DNA of 64,000 nt from a virus: positions 1 to 64,000 of IMG/VR virus record IMGVR_UViG_3300018080_000139. One strand, written 5' to 3'. Within the stretch, counting starts at the first letter, position 1. Every line of letters starts with the position of its first letter. Position numbers and translations under genes: made by a program. Below the pieces are notes generated by a model. The model searched no databases. It saw only the letters and a program-made list of their open reading frames with translations, and was not told the DNA's origin. Shown one piece after another: positions 19,962 to 43,147 of this stretch.

Positions 19962-22900
19962 ATGGAAGATATACACGGACTGTTGCGGGAATTCTACGAA
20001 AGCGAACTGCTCCTCGAGAGCAAGCAGCACCCGATTGTGAGAGACGTACAGCTCAAAGAGATTTCGTGGTTTGACCTGGCGTTTACCGTTTTTACGACGT
20101 TCGCACCCACGCGCGACATGGCGCGCAAGGACGCGCGCGAAATGGGCCTTTACGGGGCAAGCCTCGCGCGGGCCTGGAAGGCTGCGGCCAAACTCAAAGA
20201 CCCTGTTGTCAGGGAGATGACCCCCCCACCATCGGACGTCACGAAAGGTGGAGAGATCAACCAGGACCGGATGGAGGCGATCGTCAAGCGCCTCAAGGTC
20301 CCGATGAAAAAGATTTACCGGGGCAAGAAGGGCTTCGAAGAGCTTCTCCCCATCGTCAGCGCTTTGAAGCCGACCGCTGTCCAGATGTGGGCCAAACCGT
20401 TCAAACTCCTTCCGAAAAACGCCTGGCCGGAGACGGCCGATGCCGACATGACAACCGACCTCCTGAAGGACCTGGGATGGGCCGAGAAAATCAGGCTCCT
20501 CGCCACCGCGGCCTGGACGGTTCGGTCCCGCGAGATGAACGCCCTGCGCTTTGGCGGGATAGACCTCGAAACTTACAACAACGCGGCTCCGGCGCTCCAG
20601 AAAGCGGGCCTTCTCTCTAAGGCAGCCACGCCGACGATCACCAAGAGCGGCCGCGCGGCCGCCGACGCTCTGGTGGCTCAGCTCAAAGCCAGGACGTACT
20701 CGAACGCCGTCGAGCAGCTCGCCGGCGACGCCCCATCGATTTCGCCCACGGCTGCCCACGCATACGCCGACGAGAAGCCGAAAGCGGCCTCGATGCCGTG
20801 GGGAGAGCAGGTGGCAATCGTCTCCCTGTGGGAAATACAGGGACGCAACAAGCCGGACCGAGAACGTAAACAGGACGCCGAGGACTTCGCCGCGTCCGAA
20901 GTCCACATCACGGCCGATTCCTTCCACTCAGCCTGGGACTCTCTTGTAGCGAAAGGACTCATCGACGAAAAAGCAAATAGACTCACACCCGAGGGCGGAA
21001 AACGCCACAGCGGAATATTTTTGCATCTCGGGGCCGGCGCCACGAAACTCGCCATGATAAAACTCCTGAACCGCGCCCCGGCCGCCGAGATGAAGGCCTC
21101 CCGCGATTTGATGGTGCAGGGGGCTATAAACCATCTGGGCTGGACGGGCCAGGCCGTTGTCGTGGCGATCGACATGCTGGGAGGGGGGAGGTTCCAGCCG
21201 CACCAGATAGCCTCCCTGGCTTACGACCAGTGTGGAATCACACAGGCCGAATGGGATGAGGGATACTCGAAAGCGGCCACGGCCGGCGGCATTATCAAGT
21301 CCCCGACCGGGCTGACAGACTTCGGCCGCCTCGTTTCCTCAGCCGTCCAGGAAGACCTGGGGGCGAAGGGGTCTCGCGTGTGGGCCGCTCTCCGCCGCGC
21401 GAAGCCGGAGAGCTACAAACCAGTGGCCGGACCCGCGTCGGCGTCAAGCGCCCCGAAGCGATTCGATGAGCTTTCGTGGTCCGAAGTAGCGCTCCTCATC
21501 GGCTACTGGAACGTGGGAAACCATAAGACTTTCGACTCCGACGGCCAGATGAAGAACAAGCTCCTCCTGTACTCCGGTCTGGATCCGGGGGACTACATAT
21601 GGGCCCACGAGGCCCTCCGCCAAAAGGGACTGGTTTCGCTTCTCGGGGGGTCAAAGACGGTCGAGGGGGCCGAGATAGCCTCGCAAGTCTTCGCTTTTCT
21701 CAGCGAAAAATACGGGACCTCCGCGCTCAACAGCTTCATGGATCAGATGAACACTCTCGTTGTCGAGAAGCCGAAGGACGTGCGCGCGAAGCTTTCCACC
21801 ACAAACAAGATGAAGCCGAAAGTCAATAAGCCTCTCGCGGCCGCTCCCAAAGCCGGCCCGGCATCCGTGAAAGACGCCGGTCTCACCTGGCAGGAAAAAA
21901 ACACTCTGCTCGTTTTCTACCTCTACCGGGGGGAGGCTTCGACGAAGGAAAAACGCGACAAGGCCCAGAAGTACGCGAACGTGGGGACGGACGAGTACGA
22001 GCTGGCCTTGGCGAAGCTGCAGCGTTTGAAGTTCCTTTCCAAGCGATTCGCCATCACCAAGGCGGGGGCGGCCGTCGCCCAGTCAATCCTCAAGGAGAGG
22101 GGGTTCGAAGAGAAGGCCCACGCCACGACGGTCAACACGCAGAAGGTGTTTTCGGCCGTGGCCGAAGCCGGGGGATACGTCAGCCCCGCGAGAGAGCGGG
22201 AGATTCAAAACCAGGCGGCCGTGGACAAGACGCCGTCGAGGGCTGAAGACACGAAGGGGGCCGGCGGGGATCTCTTGGAAGTCGAAAAGCTCGTGATGAT
22301 GCTCGTCGCGTTCACGAACCCGGGAGAGCATGACTACATCAAGTCGATGCTCGCGAAGGATCTTGGGCGGCCGGCGGGCGAGTTCGACGCCGCCGTTTTG
22401 AAGCTGCGGAAGGAAGGCTACATCCAGCCCTACCGTGACGCCGAATTGAAGGAAAGCGGGGAATGGGAACCGACGACACGGGGGTTCGCCGCACGCGACA
22501 ATATCGAGGACCTCTTGCGCGCCGTGGATGACACGGACGTCGTTGAGATTCTCACGCGAAACCTCAAGACGAAAGCCCGGGCCGCCGACGTTCGCAAGGG
22601 AGTTCTCAAGATCAACTCGGCGGAAGACCTTCGGGATCCGGAGAAGGCTGCCATAATCGCAATCGAGATCGGGCGTAATTCGAGCTACCAGCATCACGCT
22701 TCTCGTATTTACAACGATATGACCTCGTGGAATTTCCGTGACGCTCTGCCTAATCTGGAGGCGGCCTTCCTTGTGGAGGAAGACGAGAATGGAAAGCTCG
22801 GCCTGACAGGGAAGGGCGGGAAGATCGCTGACGAGATAACACACAATCGGTCTCTTTGGGACGCTTTTCGGGAATACATTCGTTCGGGGGCAAAAGAACG

Positions 22901-25900
22901 GCCCACCCCTAAAATCGACTACACGCAAAAAATTGACATCAACAGAATGGGCATCCTGGAAAAAATCACCCTGATTGGCATTTACCACAAAGAGAACATC
23001 AAGGAGATGCAGGACACGTTTGCGCGTGATGAAAACGACTATACAACCCCCACAGAGGAGGAGTTTCAAAAGGCGGCCGCCGGTCTTCTCGGGATAACGC
23101 TCGGGGGGGAGCCCATCATCCGGCCGGAGGGGATTTTCTACACACTCACCCCGGCGGGGAAGGCGACTGTGGACCTTCTCCTCGACGTGATGGGGGTGAG
23201 GAGCCCTGATGATGCTTGGGACGTGCTGGTGGCGCAACTCAATTCCGGTCAGGGCGAATTCGATTTTGAAACGGAGGGGATGGAAGAGCCTCCTTCGAAC
23301 GAGCCCAAAGAGATTTCCTGGATGACTTTCGAGATGAAAGCCGCCCTCCTCGCCGTCGCGATCGCGCAAAAGACGAAGATGGACAAGGAAGATCCCAATG
23401 CAGCCTACAAGCTTTTGGCTTACAACGTCACCGGCGATGACCTGATGTCGGTTATCCCCCGTCTCGCCTCGGACGGACAAGTGGAACTCACCGACGAAGT
23501 AAAGTGGGTGCAGGGTCCGATGGGGAAGACATACGAGAAAGAGCCGGGGGCCCCTAAGCTTACGATTCCGGGTCGTGCGACTTTGGTCTCTCTCCTATCG
23601 TGGCACGGTGATGAGAACGCCAAGGATTGCTTCCGTCACTACACGAAGACTGGGAGCATCGTCGAGCCTCCGTCGGCGGCGGAGATGAGTGCGGCGATTG
23701 CGGCGCACTATGCGAAGAAGCCCGAGGAGCCTTCCGAGCTTTCGGCCGCTATGGACACGCTCACTGCGAAGCCCCAGGACGCGGATTTGCCGAAGGACCC
23801 GGCCCGGATGGAGGGCCCCGCCCCCTGGGAAACCCTTTCCCCTTCAGCACAATTCTTGCTCGTCGTGATGAACGAGGTGGCCCCGTCGCTCACGAGTTCT
23901 CGAGACTACGTGGACGCCTACATGAAGGTGGCCGCGCCTTATGGCTACCGTCTCGGGGACTACGAAAACGACGTGAAGACTCTCCTTCAGACTTCCGGGG
24001 GCCTTATCGGCAAATCGGACGCCGGCTATTTTCCCAAGAGCGAGGCCCGGGCCGCGGCCGCTCAGATCGTTTCCCATCACGGAGCCGGGAACGTCGAGGC
24101 GGCCTTGAAGGCCCTCGCGCCCCAGTTCAAGAAGGCTCGCAGGCAGCAGGCGTCCCCGCCGGCCGGGGCCGTCGCCGATCTCACCTGGGCCGAAAAAATC
24201 GTGGCCCTCGTCTATGGGGCCTCGGACATCTCGCGAGGAAATCGCCGGTGGGTCATAAGCGCTCGTGGGGAGCTGCAAGAATTCGAGATCGAGGATGCTG
24301 TATCTTCCCTGAAGGCAAAAAAGCTCCTCTCCGTGAAGGGGTCCCCGACAGCACGCACGAAGGAGGTTGCGACTGCTATCAGGAACGCCGTCGGAGAAAC
24401 GAATACGGAAAAGGCCGCGGACATCCTGGCGAAGGAGCGTCCGAAACCGGCGGCCCTCCCGGAAGAGCCGGCGGCCCCGGCATCCTTTCCGCCTGTGTCG
24501 GGGGAGGAACCCATGGAGTGGATAGAGTGGGTGGCTCTCGTTGCGTGCATGGCTTATCCGAAGCGCGAAAGGTTCAACGAGGTCAACCGAAGGGTGAATC
24601 CCCAAAAAGGCGGTGGGATGGACCGAAACGATCTGACGGAAGGCGAGTTGTTCCTCCTGGACCGGGGGTTTTTGATCGACGTCAAGGACTCCGATGATCC
24701 TCAGTGGCTCAACTTCGGCCGGGTGCCTAAAGGCCCCGTGACCGAGGCCGGATATGCAGCCGTGCAGAGTCTGCTGCGGAAAGCGGGGATTTCCGGGGAC
24801 AACCGGGAGGCCTACAATAAAGCTTTCGAGTACCTGAAGAAGTACAAGCCGAATCCTCCCGGAGAGATCGGCGCACGGGAGGCGGCTTTCTTGTCGCTGG
24901 TTTCCTCTTTTCCCAGGGAAGCCCGGGCCGTGCTGATGTTTTACTTGTTGTGGCATAACGAGCATCCGAATTCCAGCGCCAAGCGTCCGGAGATCGCACG
25001 CGAGAGGTTCGGAATTCCCGAGAAGGTTTTCCAGGCACAAGCCTTGTTCCTTGAAGAAAAAGGGCTCCTCGAGGCGAACCGTAGCTATATCTCCAACGAC
25101 GGAAGGAGCGCCGCGTGGGCAATCCAGAATTCTCTGCAGGTGGGCTCCCCCGCCTGGGCTCTCGAGGCCTTGGGCTACCCTGAGAGACCCCTTCCCGCGC
25201 ACACTCCTCCCTCGTGGGCGGGCGGGGTGAACGATCTCCCGTGGGATGCCGTGGCTTTCCTGGCCACCATGTACTTCTCGCCACAGGCTCGAAGCGAGGG
25301 CAAATCTAAGCAATCCAACGTCTTGAACACGAATACCGGCTTGCGTACTACCTACTATTACAGTGACAGCAGTTCCGTTTTTCAGCTCGGCCTGGTAGAG
25401 GAAGGTAAAGGTCCGGAAGGCGAAACCTCCTGGAAGCTCACCGACAAGGGGACGAAAATGATGAACGCCGTCGGCCGGGTCTTCGTTCAAATCCATGGGG
25501 TACGGGACGACGGTCGGGATCTGCTCGAAGTCCTCCGCGAGTTTTTCCCGGGACGCGGAAAAGACCTGCCGGACAGGTGGGGCGAGGAGAAGCCGACGCG
25601 CCCAATCACGATGCCTCTCCCGAAGCTCGGAGAGGAACCGGCGGAGGGGAAAGAGCCGTCCGTTGGGCGTTTGAATGTCGAAGAGTTTTCGGCACCAACT
25701 AAGCTGTTTCTGGTGTGGATGGGGCTCGCGGAGAAGAGAAGCCCTCGCGAATCAGCTTTACGGCAAGCGAGATCTGCCGCTATGACCTACGGACTTAAGG
25801 ATAGAGAAATCGCGGAAAATGAGATCGTCCGCTTGGGCCTTTACGAGCCTGCGACGCAGAAACTTAGCCACAAGGGAGTCAAGGCCTTAGATGCTCTTCT

Positions 25901-27230
25901 TCAGTCTTTAAGCGCTGATTTGAGGGGGGCGGAGTCTATTCTATCCAGAGAAGTTCCACGAGGGATTCCGGTTGGGGACCAGTTTCAGCCAGACTTGATC
26001 GTTACTCGTCAGCACTTGATTACACTTGCCTCTTGTATGTTATATCCGGACAGCGAGAGGGAAAGACGAGTATTGGCGTATACGAAGCAGCATGGAGACG
26101 ACTACGACCAACGAGAATACCGGGAGACGCTGCAGGAATTAGAAGATGACCGCCTTTTGGACTTGTCTCATCGTGGACGCGGTGTTATTCCGCAAGGCCC
26201 AGTAACCGAAAAGGGCTATGCGTCACTTCTTAAAGCCTACAAGAATGCAGGAGTTTCGGAGGGAGACAGCGCAGGACTCTTAGCCTCTCTCGTCTCCCCC
26301 CCGGCCCCGGCTCCAACGCCGGCCGCGGGAAATGCCGAGAAAATCATGAACAAGGCGAGTACGGCCGAAAAATCTTTGGTGATCGCATACGGCACGACGG
26401 ACCCGAAATACTACTATGCCATTCCGGACCGCCTCACGGGTCTCCGACATTCTCCGGGCGAGCTGAAGAGGGCGGCGAACTCCCTCGTTCAGAAGGGGAT
26501 TTTCGAGCCGACGGGGCCCGCCGCGATCTTGCCGAATTTCAAACTGACGCAAACCGGGCGCGCCGCCGCCGACTACTTGAGGAGGCTCCTTTCGGCAAAG
26601 GAAGGGGCTAACATGCATTTGCAGAAGCTCCGTCCGACTCACGCAGTGAAAGTCAGGTTCGAAGGGCTTTCGCCAGAGGCGAAAATAGTGGCCTTTGCTG
26701 TGTGGGAGCAAGCCAAGAAGTACAAAGAGCGCTCTCGCTCTATGGGACTTAGTAACAAAGAGATAAAGGCGGCCGTCGAAGAGCTGCAAAATGCCGAGTA
26801 TTTGACGTCGAAGGAGGAACCGACTGGAGACATGTCGACCGCGCAAATACTGGATGCTATGCTGTACCTGAACGCAAAGCCCGGAAGTTACGGGGCGTAC
26901 AACGACGCTTTGGTTACGCTCCGTAACCAAAGAGCCGACCTGGCGAGGGAGAAGCCGCCGAAAGCGCCGGTCTCCTCACCTCCAGCGGAGCCGTCACCCC
27001 CGCCTGTCGAGACCATGACCGACCGCGCCGGGCAAACCTACTCCGTTTCAGACCTCGACCGGATTATCCCCGGAATCGCGAAAGACAAGGGAGCGCTGTC
27101 CATGGTGCAGGAGGCCTTCCGGGCCGGACAGATCGAAGACCAGGACCACTTGCGATTCCTGGCCGACGTTGTGAAAAATTACATGGAACTTCCTGAGAGC
27201 GTGAGGAGGACGACCGGATGGCTGATCTGA
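19962..27230 (+). CDS. Giant protein 1: tandem winged-helix-like modules
   Basis: 2422 residues, no signal peptide. About 18 divergent copies of a 100-170-residue module recur. Each opens with a hydrophobic helix of the type LTWAEKIVALVYG and ends in a short helix and wing (LKAKKLLSV...T-x-x-G-x-x-A). The openings are near residues 171, 277, 505, 641, 771, 892, 998, 1120, 1293, 1407, 1518, 1653, 1759, 1911, 2018, 2134 and 2237. Ala/Pro linkers separate them. The layout resembles chains of MarR-like winged helices. The N-terminus MEDIHGLLREFYESELLLES may be a head-targeting peptide. Overlaps the next gene by 13 nt. DNA binding is inferred from fold resemblance only. Confidence 0.6.
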   Translation: MEDIHGLLREFYESELLLESKQHPIVRDVQLKEISWFDLAFTVFTTFAPTRDMARKDAREMGLYGASLARAWKAAAKLKDPVVREMTPPPSDVTKGGEINQDRMEAIVKRLKVPMKKIYRGKKGFEELLPIVSALKPTAVQMWAKPFKLLPKNAWPETADADMTTDLLKDLGWAEKIRLLATAAWTVRSREMNALRFGGIDLETYNNAAPALQKAGLLSKAATPTITKSGRAAADALVAQLKARTYSNAVEQLAGDAPSISPTAAHAYADEKPKAASMPWGEQVAIVSLWEIQGRNKPDRERKQDAEDFAASEVHITADSFHSAWDSLVAKGLIDEKANRLTPEGGKRHSGIFLHLGAGATKLAMIKLLNRAPAAEMKASRDLMVQGAINHLGWTGQAVVVAIDMLGGGRFQPHQIASLAYDQCGITQAEWDEGYSKAATAGGIIKSPTGLTDFGRLVSSAVQEDLGAKGSRVWAALRRAKPESYKPVAGPASASSAPKRFDELSWSEVALLIGYWNVGNHKTFDSDGQMKNKLLLYSGLDPGDYIWAHEALRQKGLVSLLGGSKTVEGAEIASQVFAFLSEKYGTSALNSFMDQMNTLVVEKPKDVRAKLSTTNKMKPKVNKPLAAAPKAGPASVKDAGLTWQEKNTLLVFYLYRGEASTKEKRDKAQKYANVGTDEYELALAKLQRLKFLSKRFAITKAGAAVAQSILKERGFEEKAHATTVNTQKVFSAVAEAGGYVSPAREREIQNQAAVDKTPSRAEDTKGAGGDLLEVEKLVMMLVAFTNPGEHDYIKSMLAKDLGRPAGEFDAAVLKLRKEGYIQPYRDAELKESGEWEPTTRGFAARDNIEDLLRAVDDTDVVEILTRNLKTKARAADVRKGVLKINSAEDLRDPEKAAIIAIEIGRNSSYQHHASRIYNDMTSWNFRDALPNLEAAFLVEEDENGKLGLTGKGGKIADEITHNRSLWDAFREYIRSGAKERPTPKIDYTQKIDINRMGILEKITLIGIYHKENIKEMQDTFARDENDYTTPTEEEFQKAAAGLLGITLGGEPIIRPEGIFYTLTPAGKATVDLLLDVMGVRSPDDAWDVLVAQLNSGQGEFDFETEGMEEPPSNEPKEISWMTFEMKAALLAVAIAQKTKMDKEDPNAAYKLLAYNVTGDDLMSVIPRLASDGQVELTDEVKWVQGPMGKTYEKEPGAPKLTIPGRATLVSLLSWHGDENAKDCFRHYTKTGSIVEPPSAAEMSAAIAAHYAKKPEEPSELSAAMDTLTAKPQDADLPKDPARMEGPAPWETLSPSAQFLLVVMNEVAPSLTSSRDYVDAYMKVAAPYGYRLGDYENDVKTLLQTSGGLIGKSDAGYFPKSEARAAAAQIVSHHGAGNVEAALKALAPQFKKARRQQASPPAGAVADLTWAEKIVALVYGASDISRGNRRWVISARGELQEFEIEDAVSSLKAKKLLSVKGSPTARTKEVATAIRNAVGETNTEKAADILAKERPKPAALPEEPAAPASFPPVSGEEPMEWIEWVALVACMAYPKRERFNEVNRRVNPQKGGGMDRNDLTEGELFLLDRGFLIDVKDSDDPQWLNFGRVPKGPVTEAGYAAVQSLLRKAGISGDNREAYNKAFEYLKKYKPNPPGEIGAREAAFLSLVSSFPREARAVLMFYLLWHNEHPNSSAKRPEIARERFGIPEKVFQAQALFLEEKGLLEANRSYISNDGRSAAWAIQNSLQVGSPAWALEALGYPERPLPAHTPPSWAGGVNDLPWDAVAFLATMYFSPQARSEGKSKQSNVLNTNTGLRTTYYYSDSSSVFQLGLVEEGKGPEGETSWKLTDKGTKMMNAVGRVFVQIHGVRDDGRDLLEVLREFFPGRGKDLPDRWGEEKPTRPITMPLPKLGEEPAEGKEPSVGRLNVEEFSAPTKLFLVWMGLAEKRSPRESALRQARSAAMTYGLKDREIAENEIVRLGLYEPATQKLSHKGVKALDALLQSLSADLRGAESILSREVPRGIPVGDQFQPDLIVTRQHLITLASCMLYPDSERERRVLAYTKQHGDDYDQREYRETLQELEDDRLLDLSHRGRGVIPQGPVTEKGYASLLKAYKNAGVSEGDSAGLLASLVSPPAPAPTPAAGNAEKIMNKASTAEKSLVIAYGTTDPKYYYAIPDRLTGLRHSPGELKRAANSLVQKGIFEPTGPAAILPNFKLTQTGRAAADYLRRLLSAKEGANMHLQKLRPTHAVKVRFEGLSPEAKIVAFAVWEQAKKYKERSRSMGLSNKEIKAAVEELQNAEYLTSKEEPTGDMSTAQILDAMLYLNAKPGSYGAYNDALVTLRNQRADLAREKPPKAPVSSPPAEPSPPPVETMTDRAGQTYSVSDLDRIIPGIAKDKGALSMVQEAFRAGQIEDQDHLRFLADVVKNYMELPESVRRTTGWLI

Positions 27231-30200
27231 AAAAGGCCTTGGAATTTGCCTTGCAGTTCAAAAGCGTGGAGGCTGCCGCCGACCATGCCGCCAAGATTCG
27301 CGAGGGTGGGGACGAAAAGAAGCTCAAAGGCGCGAAATACCAGGCAATAGTGAAGAGCATCGAGAAGGGGGGCACGAAGGCGGAAGCGGTTTTTGCGATG
27401 CGTAAGCTCGGGCCCAAGGACTTTGCTGTTCTCGCCGTGGACTTTCATGGAATGCCGCTGACGACTCTTCGAGGTGTCGTCTCCAATCCCGAACAGTATG
27501 CCGTGCGCGCGAAAATGGAGAAGTTGAAACTGTACGAGCCCGGCCGGACGGGTGTCGTCTCCGACTTCGGGGCCCAGGTCCTGAACCTCGCGTATCCCAA
27601 CAGGACGTACAAAAATGAAAAGGCCCGGATGAAGGCCATAATGGATGATGTCTACAAGGAAGCCGACGCGAAGGCCTCAACGCCGACCGAACCCCAGCCC
27701 GACCCCAAGAAAGCCCTCCCGGTCGTCCCGGTCAAAGCCAAATACAAAATAGCGCTCGAGCGTCTGACGCCCGAGGAAAAAATCGTCCTCGTTTCGATGT
27801 CGGCCTACCCCATCGGCACGAAGCCGAAAGGCTTCCCCGGGGAATCCGTCCGGACTAAAGACCAGGCCGCTCTCGCGCAACGGTACACAAAGCTCACCCC
27901 CATCGAGTTCGTGCGGATCCAGCGGGAACTCTTCCGCGGGAAGAAGCGGGAGGGGCAGCCGGTAATCCCCCCCGTCACGTTGGGGGGCCAGAGGATTTTC
28001 CAGCAGGACTTCGCCACGAAAGACTACATCCTTTCAGACCCCGGAAAGAGCGTGGCGGACTCGATCAGAAACGCGCTCAACCAGCGGACGCACATCAAGA
28101 CGCTTCAGGCCCTGAAGAAGGAGCGTGACGCCGTGCAGGCCGCCGGCGGCCCGGAGCTTTTCGCGAAGGGGGTGAAAGCGCAGACGATAAAACCGCCGAT
28201 GGGGAGGCCTGCAGCGGCCCCGCCTCGCGTTACGATCGCCGACCTGCAAAAGCTGATGGATGACTTCCGGGAAGTCTTCGACAAGGAAATCCTTGCCGTA
28301 AATCGTTATGAGGTTTGGGAGACACCGAGAACGAAGAAAGCTTATGAGACTTTGCGCGATGATGTCATTCCGCGGCTTGTCGCCTATTGGAATTCGATGC
28401 CGAAGGGTGAGTTGGCAAAGGAATATGACAAGCACATAGAGGCTTTGCAAGACAAGTCGATGGAGCGCATGGTGATTACGGCGACACAGACACGCGCTCA
28501 GTTTCTCCTTCCCCTGCAGCACTTGGCAGCCATCAATCGTTTGGGGGAGATCGACAGAGAAGAATGGAAAAACGACAAGGCCGCTCGCCTCGATTTCAAT
28601 TCACTTGTCCTCGATGAAAAGGCAATGGTTGTTGCCCTTGCCGTCCACATTTACGACCCCAAGGAAATAGAGATTTACACTGGGTTCAATGGCAGAGAGC
28701 AGGAAGATGCTCTGAAAAGCCTGAAGGATAAGAACATCGTGGTCCTTCCCCGCATGAAGGGGAACGACTTCACGCGGCCCGAGGAGTTTCGGGCTCAAAT
28801 AGACGAGCTTGTGAGGGAGGACTATCAGCATGGGGTCGCGAAGGGTGCCTTGATGCGGTTCGCAAAAAAGACTCATTTCCCTGCGCTCTACAAACCGCAC
28901 CAGGCTGCGTACATAGTCTTGCTTTGGAAAGCTCAAAAAAGTTATGGTGACGTCACCAATGAGGAGTTTTATAAAGTAGCGAAAGAGAATGGCTATGGGC
29001 GCATGGGAGTTATGTACGCGGAAGACGCGCGCCGCTGGGCGAAAAAAGAGGGGTTGATTGAGACTGGACGCTACGACGTAGGAAAACTAACGCCTTATGG
29101 GGAGGCGTTTTTCGATTACCTATACTCGATTGTCTATCGCGGAAAGACCGTACCGGAAATGCTGAAGGCCTTGCAGCCTAAAGTAGAGGTAGACAAAATC
29201 AAAGTCGATCTCGGCGCCGGCCCCCTCACCCTAGCAACATCACAAACTAAGGCCATGACCGCCGACGACACCGGCCTGTCTTGGGAAGAAGAGATGGTGG
29301 CTTTGAGCTATCTCGCCAACGTCAAAAAGTGGGGGGGCCACCCTGACTATCGGAGGTTTATGACCACCGTCGTTCTGAGGCTCATGTCCTCCGACGAGTT
29401 CGATCGGGGCCGGGAAGGCCTGCAGAAGAAAGGCCTGGTGGGGAAGAGAGATCAAGTCACGGCCAAAACCCGGGCGCTCGGAGAACTCATCAAGAAACGT
29501 CTCGGAATGCCGGAAGGAACCGTCCAGGGGGCGCGCGACGCCCTCGCGAAAAAGCGCCCCGGCGGACCGCTCAACATCCAAAACCAGGCCACGGATTCCG
29601 CGGAATCCCCGGTGGCGTCCGCCATCGGCTCGCTCATGCAGTCCCCCCAAGCGCAAGGCGAGGACATGATCCCGGGCTCTCTCCGGGTCCCCCTCTCCGC
29701 GCGCAACAAGCTTCGCGGCGCGTACACCATGAACGACGCCGAGCTGAGCCGCCTGGTTGACGACTTTATAGCGGGGAAACAATACCTCGCACTGGTTCAC
29801 CTGTCCTCGATCCTTCCTCAGAATCCGAACATCTCGCCGCGGACGCACGACGGCCTGAGAATGATGCTGAAAGACCAGGGATATGATGCCTTCGCAGGGT
29901 TCGAGGAGGCCATGGATTATGGGCTCGCCGACGAAGTGCTGCAGATAATCGGGACGGCGACGCACCCCGGGAAAGTCGTTCCGTTCGCGAAGCTCCTCCC
30001 GAGGATTCGCAAGATCGTCACCGATGACGGCAAGTGGGAAAATCGGTATGCGGCAATCCGGATCCTCAACGTCGGTCGGGACACGTCCGACGAGGCCATG
30101 GCGCAACTCGAGAAGGCCCTCGAGGACCAGGACGAGCGTGTTCGCGGAATTGCCAAAAAGACCTTGGAGAAGCTCGGGAAGTCCTCGGGCGTCCTGACCG

Positions 30201-33200
30201 CCGTGGACAAGAGAACGGCGACGGAGCCCGGGCCCGAGGAAAAGGAGCCTCCTCGCCGGCCGGACCTGAAAGACCTATCGTGGGGTGAGCTGGTGGCTCT
30301 CGGCGTGTGGTCCTATCACCCCAACGTCGACCGGGGAATGATAGGCGATCGGCTTGCCAAGTACAAGGTCGAGGCGCCGGCGACCATCCTGGCAAATCTC
30401 GAGAAAAGACCCGGAATGATTACGACGGAGGTGCCAGGCGAAGAGGACCTGGAAGGTTTCGAAACCGTCGTCCCCCTCCCCTCGGACGAAGGGATCGTGC
30501 TGTGGGCCCTGACCGACCTCGGCCGTAGTGTGGGGGAAGACGTCCGGCGCCTGGTCGGCAACCCTGCAGAGGCTTTGAAATTCCGACAAAAAATGCAAGA
30601 ATTTATCCCGGACCGGGAGTCGGCCACGTCGAAGCCGAAGCCCGCCATATTTGCCGGGCGAGAGGAGAAGCGGGAAGCCTCGGGCCTGTGGCACGAGGGG
30701 GAAAACCGGGCCGCGGACGCGCTGGTGCTTCTCCCACTCAAGGGGATTCCCTACATACTCCTCATTCAGCGAAGAGATGGGACCTATGCTCTTCCCGGCG
30801 GATTCGTCGAAGGGAACAAGCCGGGGGCGGCCGCGGCCGCCGACGCCTCGCGTGAGGAGGTGGAGCAGGAGACCGGGCTCTCGCTTCCACCGAAGGCCCG
30901 TGAAATCGGCTACTACTCCGACAAGGGGAGAGACCCCAGGTCTACGGGTGACAGGTGGGTGTCCACTCGCGTATTTGCGTACCACATGCCGGACGCTTCG
31001 AATCTGCCTCCAGTAACGCACGAAGGCGACCCGGACGGCGGGGCCCGGCACGCGCTGTGGGTGACGATTCCTGAAACTCGAAGACTCAATTTTTACGCCG
31101 ATCACGCGAAGATCCTTAAAAAGTATCTCGAAGACGAACTACGAAACATGGCGGCTGAAGGCCTGCTCCTCCACGACGTCGTGGATGAGGTCCTGTCCGG
31201 CGTGAAATCTCGCGGGAAAATCCCCGAGATGAAACTCGACCTGTCCCGGCTGGCCTGGACGGAGAAGGTAGCCCTTCTCGCACAAAACGCCTGGTGGACG
31301 TCGATTGACGAGGTGGCCGGCGGGATGAGCCATGCCGTGGACGCTACTGGGATCGGAGAAGACGAGTACGAGGACGCTCTTGGCGCCTTGATGCAAGTAC
31401 AGATGGGCGGTGAATACATCATGAAGCCCGTCGGAAGAGTCACGTCAACAGGCGTGAAGGTTGTCGATGCTTTGCTGGCCGAGCTGCAAGCAAAGTCCGT
31501 GCCGGAGGCTTTGAGAAAGCTCAAGGCCTCCCGGCCATCCACGCCTGATGCGAAGGCCGATGAGGCGGACCTATTCGCCGGAGAAGGTCGGGACATTGGC
31601 CAAAAACTGAGAATTTCGATTCGACGACCTGACCAGGAACTGACCAACGAGGAGCTGACCGCGCGCATCAAGCACGACGTGGGCCCGTCCAAGCGTCAGG
31701 AATCTTGGAGCTTCTTCGTTCAGCGTCGCAGTCTGAAGCCGGGGATTGACGCCAAGGAATATTGGGCTATCTGGGACAAGGTCCGGCCGAACCCACACGA
31801 ACGAGAAATTGAAGTCACGTTCGAGCCCACGCACAAAGAGACGCTCACCGGGGCCGAAGTGATGGTCATTCGGGATAAAGAGAGTCGCGGCGGTTATCTG
31901 GCCATTTTCGCGTCCGGGGCAACCTCACAGATCACGCGGCACACACCCAAACAAAATTTCGTTTCCCTGAAAGACGGAACCCCGTTCAACTGGGGTTTCC
32001 CGCCGGAGGAAAAGAAGGCTCCGGCGTCGAAGGTTGTCTTGACTCCGGAGGGCAAAAGCCTGTCAGGGGAAGTCCAGGACTTTCTTCAGAAAATCGACGA
32101 AAAGCAGAAAGTAGCTCTCTTGGTCGCCGCAATCCCAGAAATTTGGAGTAAAGCGAACGCTCGGGACTACAAAGAGGCAGTTTATCTCGAGGCTACCGGG
32201 GGAGACGATGAGGACTACTGGAGGCAGATAAGCAGGCTCGAGGAGCTGGGGGGGACCGATTCGCATGGCGTGGTGACGGAATTCGGGGCCGAGGTGGTCA
32301 AAGGCATCACCGGCGGGAGGAGCCCGATTGAATTTCTACATTACAACAAGGGGGTAACGTGGCGGGTGTCTCACTATTTCTACGGCGAGACCTTGCCTCC
32401 CCGGCTGGGCCCTGCGATTTTGGCGATCCTGCTTTCTCGCAGCAGTCCGCGCGACGAGTTCCAAAAAATGAAGTGGAGCATCGAGTGGGTGGAGTACGGG
32501 AACAAGTACTTGCGTGAGCAAAACCTCCTGGACTCCTCCAACAAATTGACTAAAGAGGGGATGTTTACGGCCTACGAGATTTTCGCCTCCGCGGGGACCA
32601 GCAAACTTTCGGAAATTCTTGCGAGGCTCGACCGGCAACTGCGTTTGGACTCAAAGCCAGGGCACGATTACGCCGTCGAAGTGGCGGCCCCTCCGGGGTC
32701 TTTCGAGATGGGCATGGGAAAAATGAAGCTTCGTAAGGGTTTCTCTTCCCCCGTTTCCGTAATGCGAAAAAAAGAAGGGGAACTCCCCTTGCCGAAGGAA
32801 CTGGAAGGGTTCAAGTTGTCCGGCAAGCTTGCAAGCGTGCCAAAGCTTGTGGCTCAGATGTTCCGAATAAAGAGACCACTCAAGAAACGGAAAGAGATCT
32901 ATGAGAAGCTGCATGTAATCTTGCGTGAGGAACTGGAAGACCGGCTCAACGACGCCGGTGTGCATTCGGCCTATTACGCCGGCGGGAAGATGTCCGATTA
33001 CCGGGGTGGGGTTTACAGTGGGCTCCTCCGCGTCCTGACTCGTAAGGATGCGCTGGGAAAGCCGGAGACCGAAAAAGATATATTGATGAATGCGCGTTCC
33101 GTGCTGTGGAGTGCGGAAAAGGCCCAAGCCATGGTGGACGATCTTATCGCAAAGTACGGCAAGAAACAAAAGGAAGGCCTGGAGAGCATTTTGCCGCACG

Positions 33201-34957
33201 AGGAGCCGAAGTCCGTACCTCTCGCCGATGTCTTGAAGGCCTCGTACCTCAAGATAGTTGCCGGCCAACCGTACTCGGCCGCGGTCTACCTGTCCGAACT
33301 GTTCCGGGAGGCCCGCAAGCTTAACGCTACCTTGTCCGTGGAAGAGTTCAAAAAAACAATCGAGGACCTGGAAAAGCAGGTCGTAATCGACGCCGTTCCG
33401 GTGAACGATCGGACGATGGTGAAAAGTGGCGAGTACGCGATCACGCAGGCCGACGGAGGCATCATAGACTTTATCATGTGGCGGGAGACAGCGCAAAAGC
33501 GGGCGCAAAAGTCTTCGGTTCCCCCGCAGACATCGAAAGAGCCGGAGCTTTCCAGGGAAGAACAGGTTGCCTTGCTCGTGCTGACGCTGAAGGCCTTAAA
33601 TCCCATCCAAAAGAAGGAGAAGGCCTACCTGTACGGGCTTCCTCACGGCAAGTTCGAAGACACCCTTCTCTCTCTCAGGGAAAAGGGGTATGTCGCCCAG
33701 GGGACGAGCGCGAATACGGCCGGAAAAGACCGCGCCACAGCGATCGCGAAGGAACTCAAGGCGAAGGACGCTATAGGCGCCCTCGAAAAGATCTCGGAGG
33801 CGCGACCGGACCTCTCTCCGACGGCCGCGGCCGTTTCTGCAATCGGCGCGCCTTCGCCAAAACTGGCGTCCGTGGGCAGCCTCTCGTGGGAGGAGAAAGT
33901 TGCGCTCCTGCTTATCTACTCGACGAAGGGGAGCGCGCGGCCCGGCGCTGGGGAGCGCATGGCCGGACTCAAACGAGATGCCTTCTTTGCCGCTGAGAAG
34001 ACTCTCATCGACAAAGGCTTTGCCCAGGCGGCTCCCGGGGAAAAATCGGCCCTCATGACCGAAGAAGGCGTCAAGGCCGTAGAGCGTATGATCGCCGATT
34101 CCGGGCTGCAATACGCCGAACAGCTCATCAAGCAGATGTCCCGAAAGGATGAGGGCCTGGAGTTCTCCCGGCGGAGCTATTCGGATCCGGAAGCCTTTCC
34201 CACATTGCACCGGCTTTACATCGAGGAAGCCGAAAAGCAACCCATGATGGCGGGAAATCTTACTATCTCAGAACTTTACGATGGCATGGTTGCCAAGGGC
34301 TTTTCGAATGACGTCGAAAAGTTTAAATCGGCTTTGCTCGGATGGATGAAGGAGCGAAAACTCACACTCTGGGTGGTCGACTCTCCCCGCCTCGAGCCGA
34401 GATCGAAGACGGATGGCATACCCAGTGATCGGGGCCTTTTGTATTTTGTTCGGATGCCGCGCGAAGGCACCCCTGGCGCGCCGGCGCCGGCGCCATCGGC
34501 ACCCACAAGTCAACCGACGGACCCCGACGCAAGCAAGCCTTCAGTTTCCGCAGCAAAGAAGAAGTACACTTTGGATTTCGATAAGGCCGGCGATAAACGG
34601 AAGAGTTTTCCATATGTTGCACGTCTGTTCCTCGACGACCGCGGGGCGGTGAAGCGGGACTTCAAGGACCTCAATCGAGAGTATTTGGGAAAATATGATG
34701 TCCGCGTGTACGGTAGGTACACCGTGGAAGAGGGGGAGGTGCTGGAAATCCAAGAAGGGGAGGGATCGTGGAGAGATAAGGACCGGCATATTTACATCGT
34801 ATTGGCCGGCGAAGAGCGTTACGTGGGGAAGGCGACAGACGTTAAAGTACATCGTCAGATCACAGAATATTTGGGCGGCAAGATAGAAGTGGAAGATATT
34901 GCGTTTAAGAGGCCTCTTATACAACCACCACAGGAGGACCCCAGATTGGAAGATTAG
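27218..34957 (+). CDS. Giant protein 2: winged-helix-like modules with HEAT-like and Nudix domains
   Basis: 2579 residues, ribosome binding site TGAGGAGGACGACC. Winged-helix-like modules open near residues 64, 183, 465, 560, 687, 1020, 1344, 1626, 1728, 2110 and 2221. Residues about 838-990 look like HEAT repeats (YAAIRILNVGRDTSDEAMAQLEKAL). Residues about 1165-1300 are a Nudix domain: LPGGFVEGNKPG...REEVEQETGL, then DPRSTGDRW as in ADP-ribose-type Nudix enzymes. The Nudix box deviates, with Lys where the first Glu is expected. The C-terminal about 130 residues form a separate alpha/beta domain. Poly-domain giants of this kind resemble the polyvalent proteins of phages and plasmids delivered into cells. 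Enzymatic activity is inferred. Confidence 0.6.
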   Translation: MADLKKALEFALQFKSVEAAADHAAKIREGGDEKKLKGAKYQAIVKSIEKGGTKAEAVFAMRKLGPKDFAVLAVDFHGMPLTTLRGVVSNPEQYAVRAKMEKLKLYEPGRTGVVSDFGAQVLNLAYPNRTYKNEKARMKAIMDDVYKEADAKASTPTEPQPDPKKALPVVPVKAKYKIALERLTPEEKIVLVSMSAYPIGTKPKGFPGESVRTKDQAALAQRYTKLTPIEFVRIQRELFRGKKREGQPVIPPVTLGGQRIFQQDFATKDYILSDPGKSVADSIRNALNQRTHIKTLQALKKERDAVQAAGGPELFAKGVKAQTIKPPMGRPAAAPPRVTIADLQKLMDDFREVFDKEILAVNRYEVWETPRTKKAYETLRDDVIPRLVAYWNSMPKGELAKEYDKHIEALQDKSMERMVITATQTRAQFLLPLQHLAAINRLGEIDREEWKNDKAARLDFNSLVLDEKAMVVALAVHIYDPKEIEIYTGFNGREQEDALKSLKDKNIVVLPRMKGNDFTRPEEFRAQIDELVREDYQHGVAKGALMRFAKKTHFPALYKPHQAAYIVLLWKAQKSYGDVTNEEFYKVAKENGYGRMGVMYAEDARRWAKKEGLIETGRYDVGKLTPYGEAFFDYLYSIVYRGKTVPEMLKALQPKVEVDKIKVDLGAGPLTLATSQTKAMTADDTGLSWEEEMVALSYLANVKKWGGHPDYRRFMTTVVLRLMSSDEFDRGREGLQKKGLVGKRDQVTAKTRALGELIKKRLGMPEGTVQGARDALAKKRPGGPLNIQNQATDSAESPVASAIGSLMQSPQAQGEDMIPGSLRVPLSARNKLRGAYTMNDAELSRLVDDFIAGKQYLALVHLSSILPQNPNISPRTHDGLRMMLKDQGYDAFAGFEEAMDYGLADEVLQIIGTATHPGKVVPFAKLLPRIRKIVTDDGKWENRYAAIRILNVGRDTSDEAMAQLEKALEDQDERVRGIAKKTLEKLGKSSGVLTAVDKRTATEPGPEEKEPPRRPDLKDLSWGELVALGVWSYHPNVDRGMIGDRLAKYKVEAPATILANLEKRPGMITTEVPGEEDLEGFETVVPLPSDEGIVLWALTDLGRSVGEDVRRLVGNPAEALKFRQKMQEFIPDRESATSKPKPAIFAGREEKREASGLWHEGENRAADALVLLPLKGIPYILLIQRRDGTYALPGGFVEGNKPGAAAAADASREEVEQETGLSLPPKAREIGYYSDKGRDPRSTGDRWVSTRVFAYHMPDASNLPPVTHEGDPDGGARHALWVTIPETRRLNFYADHAKILKKYLEDELRNMAAEGLLLHDVVDEVLSGVKSRGKIPEMKLDLSRLAWTEKVALLAQNAWWTSIDEVAGGMSHAVDATGIGEDEYEDALGALMQVQMGGEYIMKPVGRVTSTGVKVVDALLAELQAKSVPEALRKLKASRPSTPDAKADEADLFAGEGRDIGQKLRISIRRPDQELTNEELTARIKHDVGPSKRQESWSFFVQRRSLKPGIDAKEYWAIWDKVRPNPHEREIEVTFEPTHKETLTGAEVMVIRDKESRGGYLAIFASGATSQITRHTPKQNFVSLKDGTPFNWGFPPEEKKAPASKVVLTPEGKSLSGEVQDFLQKIDEKQKVALLVAAIPEIWSKANARDYKEAVYLEATGGDDEDYWRQISRLEELGGTDSHGVVTEFGAEVVKGITGGRSPIEFLHYNKGVTWRVSHYFYGETLPPRLGPAILAILLSRSSPRDEFQKMKWSIEWVEYGNKYLREQNLLDSSNKLTKEGMFTAYEIFASAGTSKLSEILARLDRQLRLDSKPGHDYAVEVAAPPGSFEMGMGKMKLRKGFSSPVSVMRKKEGELPLPKELEGFKLSGKLASVPKLVAQMFRIKRPLKKRKEIYEKLHVILREELEDRLNDAGVHSAYYAGGKMSDYRGGVYSGLLRVLTRKDALGKPETEKDILMNARSVLWSAEKAQAMVDDLIAKYGKKQKEGLESILPHEEPKSVPLADVLKASYLKIVAGQPYSAAVYLSELFREARKLNATLSVEEFKKTIEDLEKQVVIDAVPVNDRTMVKSGEYAITQADGGIIDFIMWRETAQKRAQKSSVPPQTSKEPELSREEQVALLVLTLKALNPIQKKEKAYLYGLPHGKFEDTLLSLREKGYVAQGTSANTAGKDRATAIAKELKAKDAIGALEKISEARPDLSPTAAAVSAIGAPSPKLASVGSLSWEEKVALLLIYSTKGSARPGAGERMAGLKRDAFFAAEKTLIDKGFAQAAPGEKSALMTEEGVKAVERMIADSGLQYAEQLIKQMSRKDEGLEFSRRSYSDPEAFPTLHRLYIEEAEKQPMMAGNLTISELYDGMVAKGFSNDVEKFKSALLGWMKERKLTLWVVDSPRLEPRSKTDGIPSDRGLLYFVRMPREGTPGAPAPAPSAPTSQPTDPDASKPSVSAAKKKYTLDFDKAGDKRKSFPYVARLFLDDRGAVKRDFKDLNREYLGKYDVRVYGRYTVEEGEVLEIQEGEGSWRDKDRHIYIVLAGEERYVGKATDVKVHRQITEYLGGKIEVEDIAFKRPLIQPPQEDPRLED

Positions 34958-38650: not shown

Positions 38651-40171
38651 GTGGAAATGCCCGAATTATTATATCTCGACAAGTACGGGGAGAAGAAGAC
38701 TCTCGAAGTCAAGGAGCGTGCGACAATCGGCACTTTCGACGACTGCGATGTGTGCTTGTCTTCCTCAGCGCTCGACGAAAGGCATGTTCTGATTTTCAGC
38801 GCGGAGTGTGGCTGGGAGGACGAATTTTCCGAGGCGGACGCCGGCAAGTACTTCGTGAAAAACGTGGGGTCCCGCCCTGTTTTCGTCCACCATGTAATCC
38901 GGAGAGCTAGCGAAGTGCTGGAGCCTGGAGCGAGATCAGGCCTGTCCGCAAAAGTTTCCATTTCGGTTGGGACTGCACGCGAGGGAGACCAGGTTACGGT
39001 CGTGTGGATGAATGCCGAAGCGGAATACGCCGACGAAGATTACCGGATTGTCCGGCTGAAAGCCAGCAGTGGAAAAGACGAGCTTCTCGATCTCGAGGTG
39101 CGAAGGCATCTCGAAAATTACTATCTGCGCTTGCGAGGGGTGGCCGCGAAGCCTGGGGATGTCGCGCGGGCGACGGCTCTTTTTCTGCGAGAGTCTTTCG
39201 ACGTGTCCATGGCCGCCATCTATCGCCGGACCGGGCCGAAATGGAAGTCCGCGGCCGTGTCCCGGAGGCTGAAGAGCGATGAGTACGTACCGTCGACGAC
39301 GATTTTCCGTCGGGCCATCGAGGAAAAGACGCCACTCCTCGTTCGTTTCGAAGACGGCGTGGTAAAAATCGACGAAGAGGCCTCGACACCTTCGCTTTCC
39401 GTTGTGGCGTCGCCGGCAAAGCGCGCCGTACTAATCCCTCTCTTTCAGGGGGATAGCGTTTTCGGAATGCTGTACTTGGACACGCGCGACGAGACCATCT
39501 TGACACAAAAGGACTATGACGTTCTGGTCCGGATGGTTCACCGCGGGGGGGTGGGAGCCGTTCTCGCCGGCTATCTCGCCGAGGACGCGGAGGCGAAGCA
39601 GTTTTTGCTTTTTCGGGATTCTCCACCGCGTGGTGAATACTGGCGTTACGTTTTCGCGGCGGAGAGGGCGCCTTACCCCCTTACGGGAGTTAAGGTTGAC
39701 AAGGACCGCGGGATTATGCGCTTTCTTTTCGGACACGTTTCCGATAAGCTCTCTACGGTCTGCCGGGTCAAGAGCTTTTGCGCGGGGGCGATGGCCGCCG
39801 GCGTCGAGGATTTGCTCACCATCGCCACCAGGTACTCGGTTTCGATCGACGACTCCGTCGATCTGCTTAAAGCTGGGCTGTCGCACATAACAGTGGCTTT
39901 CCCGGATGAGGGGGATATACTCGACGACACGGACGCCGAGACGCGGACCGTTCGCGTCGGCCTTTTCGGGGACGTGTATGCCTACATGCGGAAAGACGGT
40001 AAGGTGTATGAGTTTCGAGACGACGAGGAAGGCTACAGGGATTTCGAATTCGCCGTCGGGGACTACTTGGTGATTTCTCTTCGCCGCATTCCCGATAGAT
40101 TTCTCACCGATCGAGTCCGAGAGCTGAAAAAGCACAGTCGCGACTTCTTTTTGCTCGCAAGGGAGAGATGA
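38651..40171 (+). CDS. FHA-GAF-phosphatase-like signalling protein
   Basis: Start is GTG 38651 or ATG 38657, both near TAGGATTGAGG. Residues about 5-115 fit a forkhead-associated domain (RATIGTFDDCDVCLSSSALDERHVLI: the strand-loop binding phosphothreonine). About 160-310 fit a GAF domain (ATALFLRESFDVSMAAIYRR...VLIPLFQGDSVFGMLYLDTR). About 320-506 resemble a SpoIIE/PP2C fold (GDYLVISLRRIPDRFLTDRVREL), but I do not see the usual metal-binding aspartates clearly. The stop overlaps the kinase start (ATGATG), so the two proteins are co-produced. Confidence 0.6.
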   Translation: MEMPELLYLDKYGEKKTLEVKERATIGTFDDCDVCLSSSALDERHVLIFSAECGWEDEFSEADAGKYFVKNVGSRPVFVHHVIRRASEVLEPGARSGLSAKVSISVGTAREGDQVTVVWMNAEAEYADEDYRIVRLKASSGKDELLDLEVRRHLENYYLRLRGVAAKPGDVARATALFLRESFDVSMAAIYRRTGPKWKSAAVSRRLKSDEYVPSTTIFRRAIEEKTPLLVRFEDGVVKIDEEASTPSLSVVASPAKRAVLIPLFQGDSVFGMLYLDTRDETILTQKDYDVLVRMVHRGGVGAVLAGYLAEDAEAKQFLLFRDSPPRGEYWRYVFAAERAPYPLTGVKVDKDRGIMRFLFGHVSDKLSTVCRVKSFCAGAMAAGVEDLLTIATRYSVSIDDSVDLLKAGLSHITVAFPDEGDILDDTDAETRTVRVGLFGDVYAYMRKDGKVYEFRDDEEGYRDFEFAVGDYLVISLRRIPDRFLTDRVRELKKHSRDFFLLARER

Positions 40172-41223
40172 TGCAGCCTACGCAGCAACCGGCTTTAGAC
40201 GAGTTTCTGTCGACGGTAGACGCGATTGCTGGAGGAGACCACTCCCCGGACACGCTGCAAAAGATGTGCGTTCTGTGTTCGCCTGACTATGAGCCCACGC
40301 GCGAAGACAAGGTTCGATTGGGTGGCGAAGCGATTGTCCTAAAAGTATCAAATACTGTGCTTGATCGCGCAGAAGTATTAAAAATACCCCGACGCGCACT
40401 GGTCGAGAATAAGAGGCTTCTGGCACGGTATTTTCGGGGAATGCAACTGCAAAGCCGTGTCCACCGCTACGTTCGCGCCGGAGTCCCAGAAGTGTACGCA
40501 GCACGATATAATGCCCCGTTTGTCAGCATGGAGTGGATTCGCGGGCTGGCACTACTCCGCTTCCTCGAGCAAGCGGGCCAGCGAGAGTCCGCCCGGTTTT
40601 TTGTTAGCATCTTGGACTTGGTAGCCAGCCTGCATGATCGAATGGTGATTCATCGGGATCTTACACCCTCTAATATACTCGTGGGGGTGGATCCTGTAAC
40701 GGAAGCTCTTTGCCCTTACCTTTTGGATTTCGGCCTCGCAAAGCGCGTGCAAGGCGAATCAACGCTTACGGGAATTGGAGCAAAGCTGGGGACGAACGGC
40801 TGGGCGAGTCCGGACCAGCTCGATGATGCCGCGCGTGCTGATTTCCTGGACGACGTGTACACGGCGGGGCGTTTGCTCTACGTGATGGCTACTTATGCCA
40901 CGACAAAAGCCTGTCCGCGGAAAGATCGCGATTATGACGAGCGGCTTTTACCTGGGGAGTGGCTTCCAATTTTTCAGGCGGCGACCGCTCCACGAGAGGC
41001 TCGCTACCAATCTATCAGGGAGCTTCGGGCTGCCGTCGCTCGTGTCGTGGGGATCGAGGACGTAAGTATTGTTAGGGTGCCCGACCCCATTTCGGTTTTC
41101 TCAGAAGATCTACGGTCGACCAGAAAGATTCGGAAAGTTTCGCCCCCTCCCGAGAGTACGGAAGGGGATGACCTCGTAGACCTTTTCGTAAAAGCGGTAA
41201 GGTCTGCAATTTATAACTCGTAG
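40168..41223 (+). CDS. Serine/threonine protein kinase
   Basis: 351 residues. Hanks-type motifs: a glycine-poor nucleotide loop (VRLGGEAIVLKV), the beta3 Lys in AEVLKI (K72), catalytic HRDLTPSN (H162-N169), DFG (D187-G189) and the activation segment GTNGWASPDQ in place of APE. No TM segment or PASTA domain. The C-terminal about 60 residues are disordered, with basic SRxxRK-like patches. Together with the upstream FHA/phosphatase-like protein it forms a kinase-reader pair. Targets could be host proteins or virion proteins. Confidence 0.88.
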   Translation: MMQPTQQPALDEFLSTVDAIAGGDHSPDTLQKMCVLCSPDYEPTREDKVRLGGEAIVLKVSNTVLDRAEVLKIPRRALVENKRLLARYFRGMQLQSRVHRYVRAGVPEVYAARYNAPFVSMEWIRGLALLRFLEQAGQRESARFFVSILDLVASLHDRMVIHRDLTPSNILVGVDPVTEALCPYLLDFGLAKRVQGESTLTGIGAKLGTNGWASPDQLDDAARADFLDDVYTAGRLLYVMATYATTKACPRKDRDYDERLLPGEWLPIFQAATAPREARYQSIRELRAAVARVVGIEDVSIVRVPDPISVFSEDLRSTRKIRKVSPPPESTEGDDLVDLFVKAVRSAIYNS

Positions 41224-41235
41224 GAGGGACGGCAA

Positions 41236-41844
41236 GTGACGATAGGAAATTACGGTTTGGAATTTACTTTCACCAATGAAACGGACGGGATCGTGTCCGC
41301 CAATCAGCTCGGGATCCCCGGCCTGGCCCCGGGAGAGACGGTAACGATTTATGAAAACAAGTTGCGCCCGGGGCATTTCGGCATGGTCGATGGGGGGAAA
41401 CTCTCGGTGTCTCCGGAGCTTCCCCCCGACCTCGTGACGCGCGCGGCGTCGCTGAACTGGCAGGACTCGGAGTGGAGGAAACTCCTCGAGATGCTGGCCG
41501 CCAGCAAAGACAGCCTGGCTTTCGCTTCGGACGCACCGGCCACCGCCGACGTCGACGCCGAAGTCGAGGTGGAGCTTTTCCTGCTCGACGCGGCGGGAGT
41601 ACCGATCCTGCTCGACTCCGAAGAGGAAGTGGACATCAGCGTGGACACCGGGCTGATCGTGGACGTGTCCGGTTACGTGTCCGGAGACTTGAACGACGTC
41701 GGGCCGATTCGCGCGAAGTGCGCGTCCGGGCTTATCACGATCACCGTGACCGACGACGCGGCCGAAGCGCAAACGATTTCGCTCGCAAACCCGTCGACCG
41801 CCGGACTGACCGTCACCGACACGCACGTCGTAACTTACAGTTAA
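41236..41844 (+). CDS. Ig-like domain protein, 202 residues
   Basis: GTG start behind TAGGAGGGACGGCAA. The N-terminal part is a compact beta-domain. The C-terminal about 85 residues (VEVELFLLDAAGVPILLDSEEEVDISVDTG...ITVTDDAAEAQTISL) look like a bacterial Ig fold as found on phage heads and fibres. Probably a virion surface protein. Confidence 0.5.
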   Translation: MTIGNYGLEFTFTNETDGIVSANQLGIPGLAPGETVTIYENKLRPGHFGMVDGGKLSVSPELPPDLVTRAASLNWQDSEWRKLLEMLAASKDSLAFASDAPATADVDAEVEVELFLLDAAGVPILLDSEEEVDISVDTGLIVDVSGYVSGDLNDVGPIRAKCASGLITITVTDDAAEAQTISLANPSTAGLTVTDTHVVTYS

Positions 41845-41857
41845 TAGGGAGCGCGGG

Positions 41858-42208
41858 ATGATGACGATTTCCGTCAAGGGGGCCGTGCAGGTAAAAAACG
41901 AGCAGGGGCGCGTCGAATACTCGGAGCTGCTGGCGAAGGATTTTTCTGTTGCTGAACACTATATTCGGCATTTGAAAATAGCCGCCGGCTCCATAGACGC
42001 CAACCTGGACTTGGGCGGGGTGAGCGACATCACTTTCGCCCTGATCCTCTCTGATCTGCCCGTGGCCCCGAAAATAAACGGAGCCCTGTCGGCTCTCCCG
42101 GCCGGAAACATGTTTGTTTTCAGCGGATCGACGGGAAGCTACATCACAGACATTAAGCTGTCGAACGCGGCCGGCACGGACGCTAACTTGCGCGTTATTT
42201 TGGGGTAA
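41858..42208 (+). CDS. Putative structural protein, 116 residues
   Basis: ATGATG start; weak GAGCGCGGG upstream. Beta-rich sequence (IKIAAGSIDANLDLGGVSDITFALILSDLPV...GSYITDIKLSNAAGTDANLRVIL) like a small decoration or connector protein. No family is known to me. Confidence 0.45.
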   Translation: MMTISVKGAVQVKNEQGRVEYSELLAKDFSVAEHYIRHLKIAAGSIDANLDLGGVSDITFALILSDLPVAPKINGALSALPAGNMFVFSGSTGSYITDIKLSNAAGTDANLRVILG

Positions 42209-42212
42209 TGCC

Positions 42213-42886: not shown

Positions 42887-42895
42887 GGGGGGAAT

Positions 42896-43147
42896 TTGCT
42901 CGAGACAAAGATTTTTCCACCGAAAGATGCGGAGGCCTATGACTTCCATCGCGAGGCGTACTCGCCTTTTGTCAAGGTCTCTCTGCCTGGGGGCGGCGAT
43001 GAGTACTCGTTGCTGTGGGAAGAGTTCGTCTCGTGGTTTCGTCGCGTGTGCCCGGCCTATTGGCCGCGCGATCGCGCGCAAACATATCTTTTCAACTTTC
43101 GAAAGTTGCGGTTTTTCCTTGAGACTCAGGATTTTATACCGCTGTAA
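42896..43147 (+). CDS. Hypothetical protein, 83 residues
   Basis: Starts at TTG 42896 after AAGGGGGGAAT. Aromatic and charged (FHREAYSPFVKVSLPGGGDEYSLLWEEFVSWFRRVCPAYWPRDRAQTYLF). No motif is recognised. The short spacing to both neighbours supports a real gene in the head cluster. Confidence 0.5.
   Translation: MLETKIFPPKDAEAYDFHREAYSPFVKVSLPGGGDEYSLLWEEFVSWFRRVCPAYWPRDRAQTYLFNFRKLRFFLETQDFIPL

Follow-up and report, generated by a model that had tools for sequence, protein, structure and literature searches.

The window that we analysed comprises the first 64 kb of a virus record of 95,867 bases that has no end repeats. It contains two giant genes lying one after the other on the same strand. 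A sequence-only reading had described two overlapping genes encoding 2422 and 2579 residues, and this was found to be exact: the end of giant 1 and the start of giant 2 share 13 bases, both frames are uninterrupted, and a GAGGAGG-type ribosome site precedes the start of giant 2. Codon usage agreed with that of the other late genes of the phage (r = 0.95 for giant 1 and 0.91 for giant 2), which excludes an assembly artefact and gives no obvious sign of recent acquisition. An artefact was likewise ruled out by the presence of two open frames of more than 7 kb with usual codon use. The features of both genes and their surroundings are listed in Table 1.

Table 1. Features of the giant genes and the adjoining head-gene region, in positions of the 64-kb window
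Feature	Position	Strand	Remarks
Three genes common with relative L009	17193..18569	+	Left flank; 27-52% identity; last two decoration/cement-like
Giant 1	19962..27230	+	2422 aa, 266 kDa, pI 6.6; 18 winged-helix modules and Pro-rich linkers
Giant 1 N-terminus, MEDIHGLLREFYESELLLE/SKQ	19962..20021	+	Weak, post hoc likeness to T4-type capsid-targeting propeptide, [LI]xE cleavage site
G1-1	20451..20771	+	Residues 164-270; AlphaFold2 winged helix, pLDDT 87.5, pTM 0.79
G1-2	20769..21107	+	Profile, leave-one-out
G1-3	21111..21434	+	Profile, leave-one-out
G1-4	21447..21782	+	Profile, leave-one-out
G1-5	21858..22178	+	Region matching Pfam PF24409 wHTH-PRTase_assc and PADLOC PRTase_III-A (retron type III)
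G1-6	22248..22595	+	Profile, leave-one-out
G1-7	22614..22925	+	Found by profile, missed by helix-1 motif
G1-8	22923..23264	+	Profile, leave-one-out
G1-9	23298..23660	+	Most divergent, below leave-one-out threshold; AlphaFold2 pLDDT 85.2, pTM 0.76, clear beta-hairpin wing
G1-10	23811..24158	+	Profile, leave-one-out
G1-11	24156..24470	+	Profile, leave-one-out; LTWAEKIVALV
G1-12	24492..24866	+	Partner of G1-16 by score and in the tree (UFBoot 92)
G1-13	24888..25217	+	Profile, leave-one-out
G1-14	25215..25565	+	Includes EarA / phrog_11046 regulator-like match
G1-15	25662..25985	+	Profile, leave-one-out
G1-16	25977..26336	+	Profile, leave-one-out; partner of G1-12 in tree
G1-17	26361..26657	+	Found by profile
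G1-18	26646..26963	+	Profile, leave-one-out
Giant 2	27218..34957	+	2579 aa, 287 kDa, pI 8.8; 6 clear and 4 degenerate winged-helix modules
G2-1	27740..28153	+	Profile, leave-one-out
G2-2	28580..28903	+	Profile; fails leave-one-out test
G2-3, degenerate	28895..29221	+	hhalign 60%
G2-4	29252..29587	+	Profile, leave-one-out
HEAT-like stretch	30002..30232	+	E 4e-5, below Pfam's cut-off
G2-5, degenerate	30251..30622	+	hhalign 44%; fails leave-one-out test
NUDIX domain, ADP-ribose-pyrophosphatase type	30692..31135	+	Altered Nudix box
G2-6	31223..31564	+	Profile, leave-one-out
G2-7, degenerate	32030..32347	+	Profile; hhalign 46%
G2-8, degenerate	32360..32662	+	hhalign 12%, shuffles <=1.5%
G2-9	33524..33835	+	Profile, leave-one-out
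G2-10	33857..34180	+	Profile, leave-one-out
Patatin-like phospholipase gene	36897-37826	+	E 7e-27; within head-gene cluster just after giants
Weak GAF (FHA-like by eye) protein and serine/threonine-type protein kinase	38657-41223	+	Head operon
Protein kinase, small head genes, prohead protease, major capsid protein	40168..46723	+	Right flank, also in L009
Prohead protease	43434-45245	+	Right flank of giants
gp23-type major capsid protein	45287-46720	+	Right flank of giants

A scan with the helix-1 motif (L-x-W-x-E-K) gave 18 starts in giant 1 and 7 in giant 2 above 7 bits, compared to an expectation of ~0.7 starts above 8 bits per shuffled protein; the scan served as a guide only, because its matrix was built partly from the same sites. 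The first module profile, built from 24 motif-picked modules, recovered three copies that had not been used in building it, at residues 888-982 (i-E 1.9e-4) and 2157-2228 (i-E 7e-9) of giant 1 and at residues 1631-1697 of giant 2 (i-E 1.6e-4). With leave-one-out profiles, the left-out module was still found in 22 of 24 cases, and 20 of the 24 modules outscored the best match (5.4 bits) among 200 shuffled proteins, with G1_34, G1_1121, G2_463 and G2_1020 falling below this threshold. None of the other genes of the phage scored above 5.9 bits against the module profile. Profile searches thus did relate the modules to one another, as the sequence-only reading had supposed.

For the final alignment, G1_34 and G2_1020, which were never recovered, were removed and two new giant 1 copies were added, resulting in 24 modules (18 from giant 1 and 6 from giant 2) of low mutual identity, 14-32% to the first row. 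Four degenerate modules in giant 2 were aligned by hhalign with probabilities between 12 and 60%, whereas the control, shuffles of two of the four, reached at most 1.5%. An additional 'module' at the N-terminus of giant 1 (residues 28-145) was not supported, with no leave-one-out match and an hhalign probability of 1.2%. In the end giant 1 has 18 modules and giant 2 has 10. Of these 28, 24 are clearly homologous and four degenerate, and the earlier count of some 30 was therefore fair. Both proteins had also been described as made of these modules. This holds for giant 1, where the modules account for 75% of the protein and the linkers between them are rich in Pro and Ala (Pro 11.4% outside the modules vs 4.2% inside), but not for giant 2, where they cover ~40% (1003/2579 aa) and where NUDIX, HEAT-like and unassigned domains are found in addition. 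In a tree of the modules, those of giant 1 and giant 2 were intermixed (6 label changes vs a shuffled mean of 5.5), with weak support everywhere, so a simple whole-gene duplication from giant 1 to giant 2 was not supported.

AlphaFold2 models were made for two modules, the typical G1-1 and the most divergent G1-9, with the other modules supplied as an alignment. In both, a three-helix core, a beta wing and a C-terminal helix were predicted, and G1-9 showed a clear two-strand wing. Foldseek searches with both models returned mostly winged-helix proteins, among them MarR Rv2887, MntR, SSV1 F-93 and CggR, and further matches to PadR, RTP, TFIIE, ORC and DnaD. Since the E-values were 0.02 or worse and the TM-scores mostly 0.35-0.55, the modules clearly belong to this fold class but are divergent members of it. 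When compared to the PDB, the module profile matched S19e at 7e-4 and MarR at 3e-3. The two models, Foldseek and the PDB profile agree, and the predicted assignment of the modules to a divergent branch of the winged-helix fold is well supported; structure prediction, which the sequence-only reading had named as the means to overturn its winged-helix claim, upheld it. A plain helical solenoid was ruled out by the predicted wings.

The modules resemble MarR/PadR-type regulators in their helix order, in an LT-x-x-G turn from wing to helix and in weak profile matches. In contrast to these regulators, the giants string ~28 units in two chains and carry an acidic recognition helix and mostly short wings without D-x-R. 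The charge of the recognition helix was counted over its first nine positions, a stretch picked after the controls were seen, and the full 13-residue stretch was abandoned because it did not discriminate, E. coli SlyA looking acidic there as well. At the start of the helix the 24 modules had a mean of 0.9 basic and 2.3 acidic residues, 17 being net negative and two net positive, compared to none net negative among the controls, which were only five sequences (E. coli MarR, SlyA and MprA, PDB 3f3x and S19e). The MarR-type D-x-R wing motif, searched with a loose regular expression, was missing in 22 of 24 modules. Neither a recognition helix free of excess acid nor a D-x-R wing, the two features expected of MarR-type DNA binding, thus characterizes the modules. 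From these residues, a canonical DNA-reading mode appears unlikely for most of them, and the charge analysis leaves room for nonspecific DNA contact through other faces of the module.

These results bear on the suggestion, also made in the sequence-only reading, that the giants bind DNA, either coating or condensing the packaged genome or acting after injection as repressors of promoters at many sites. Winged helices most commonly serve to bind DNA, helix 2 of the modules is mildly basic (mean +1.1), giant 2 has a pI of 8.8 and the genes are located among head genes, all of which would fit such a role. However, the acidic recognition helices and the mostly missing D-x-R argue against it, and giant 1, with a net charge of -8 and a pI of 6.6, is unlike DNA-condensing proteins; we therefore consider DNA binding improbable as the function of the giants. 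With an acidic recognition-helix face and mostly short wings, the modules are most likely protein-binding and would act as beads that hold proteins rather than as readers of DNA. The charge result also warns that not every phage winged helix is a DNA-binding regulator.

Pfam PF24409 matched giant 1 with a whole-protein E-value of 5.5e-10, a value that sums over its modules, and PADLOC PRTase_III-A matched it at 8.7e-5. Both models describe the winged helix associated with effectors of type III retrons, and PRTase/WH effectors are found in type III-A1 retrons (PMC12548924). The giants could accordingly be pictured as late intracellular hubs or decoys that stay outside the particle and hold host regulators or defence proteins, with modules that imitate, for example, the retron type III winged helix. 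We regard this as unlikely, since late-gene location favours the virion and the matches reflect a general winged-helix resemblance: the E-value sums over modules, single modules match Pfam weakly, at 0.0024 at best, and the relationship is thus one of resemblance and not of membership.

The giants are surrounded by head genes on the same strand, with decoration-like genes upstream and the kinase, the protease and the major capsid protein downstream; the gene for a gp20-type portal is found farther on, at ~77-79 kb of the record. For the patatin-like gene, an exact-peptide scan of IMG/VR gave no relative. Judged by this gene context, a location of the giants in the head is plausible. A relative of 47.6 kb (L005/L009), with a major capsid protein 57-58% identical and a sheath 62% identical, keeps both flanks in order, including the protein kinase of the head operon, without the giants between them. 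The giants are thus accessory and dispensable, as they are absent from this syntenic block.

The same comparison weighs on a structural role, in which the giants would serve assembly and not act on the host, as an internal scaffold of the prohead, a core, an inner-shell or a tail-neck component. Because the relative with its 58% identical capsid protein and 62% identical sheath lacks them at this place, a core function in assembly is improbable for them, and the embedded NUDIX domain would be odd for a scaffold. We thus find a structural role rather unlikely, although the operon is common to decoration-like proteins, the protease and the major capsid protein, many repeated weak binding sites would suit a lattice, and DarA/Hdf of P1 line the inner head surface (PMC12810830).

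The NUDIX domain of giant 2 has ADP-ribose pyrophosphatases as its nearest relatives. Its Nudix box reads EEVEQETGL where active hydrolases have REUxEExGU, with R changed to E and the first E of EE changed to Q; the loss of this Arg and of one Glu makes catalysis doubtful. Two distant relatives have free-standing NUDIX genes close to their capsid gene (L007:11885-12958 and L008:175-1029).

The first 20 residues of giant 1 contain LLLE/S. Such sites also occur in other genes and are few in the relatives, and reading this N-terminus as a putative capsid-targeting propeptide is a weak, post hoc suggestion. A polyprotein cut into modules by the prohead protease was rejected, as LxE-type sites do not recur in the linkers. 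In one of the distant relatives, two adjacent proteins (L007:10492-11873) start with MIEFLKLFEA and MIEFLRLFES, which look like two copies of a capsid-targeting propeptide.

Several known systems were compared. Winged helices are known mainly as nucleic-acid or adaptor domains in single or few copies, and tandem winged-helix adaptors are represented by Vps22/25/36 of ESCRT-II and by LOTUS/OST-HTH proteins such as MARF1. Like the giants, these adaptors place winged helices in series, and theirs bind protein or RNA and not promoters; in contrast to the giants they have few units and are cellular and mostly eukaryotic, a comparison made by PDB search only. Polyvalent proteins, such as P1 DarB/DdrB and the N4 virion RNA polymerase, adjoin late virion genes, carry enzymatic domains and have been proposed to be injected (Iyer et al. 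2017, PMC5512222). The giants likewise are large multidomain proteins beside late virion genes, and giant 2 holds an enzyme-like domain of nucleotide metabolism in its NUDIX of ADP-ribose type. However, polyvalent proteins combine many different enzymes whereas the giants mostly repeat one non-enzymatic fold, and the diagnostic polyvalent-protein domains (peptidase, ART, DNA methylase/helicase, ParB-like nuclease and MuF) were absent from the giants in Pfam, PHROGs and PADLOC. Packaging and injection have been predicted for polyvalent proteins. Head-internal Dar proteins (PMC12810830) and ejection proteins (PMC5694885) provide further cases for comparison. The T4 internal proteins and Alt and the ejection proteins of SPN3US-phiKZ occur together with a gp23-type capsid protein, a gp20-type portal and a prohead protease, as here, and the N-terminus of giant 1 weakly resembles a short capsid-targeting propeptide, which only suggests targeting and cleavage. 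No sequence similarity to the giants was found, and the giants are far larger than the T4 internal proteins.

Our tentatively favoured reading, which falls short of an even chance, is that the giants are accessory late proteins located inside the head, probably ejected, that bind many proteins at once. A winged-helix module of ~100 residues would have been multiplied ~28 times and diverged into a string of beads, joined in giant 1 by the Pro/Ala-rich linkers. The proteins would be made together with the head proteins and packed inside the head, small beads on flexible linkers could exit through the tail with the DNA, and the ejected giants may then engage many host (or phage) proteins at the same time, like polyvalent or ejection proteins. 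The expenditure of 15 kb of a 96 kb genome record on ~28 modules, at a place where a relative whose capsid is closely similar does without them, suggests a strong local advantage. If the giants are packaged, they would represent a new architecture for virion-delivered binders and offer a way to find the targets of a phage at entry.

In single-sequence searches of INPHARED and PLSDB, no relative of the modules or the whole giants was found, and the only matches were to NUDIX (of giant 2 in INPHARED). Scans of IMG/VR with the giants and of GTDB with giant 1 only gave no relative either, although both needed exact 8-residue matches and could miss distant relatives. The module profile found nothing in 16 capsid-related virus records, in a search run without a positive control. 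Among the proteins searched, no other carried so many winged helices; by this number the giants stand apart from other giant multidomain proteins encoded by late phage genes, of which they are a variant. A more doubtful step would be to see in them a new class of viral repeat protein, in which a winged helix stripped of its DNA-reading surface became the bead repeated ~28 times in two head-packed, injected binders of multiple host proteins.

Three further observations were made. In L009, the prohead protease ORF (minus strand) contains a long run of EDDLEDS-type acidic repeats. At 13988-16726 (+) the window encodes a very acidic protein of 907-912 aa (net -92) with a zinc-ribbon-like match, 23% homologous to a 566 aa protein in L009 and a possible scaffold. 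At 6898-9564 (-) lies a DNA polymerase I in which an N-terminal uracil-DNA glycosylase domain is fused to exonuclease and polymerase domains (Pfam: UDG 9e-23, exo 1e-11 and pol A 6e-85).
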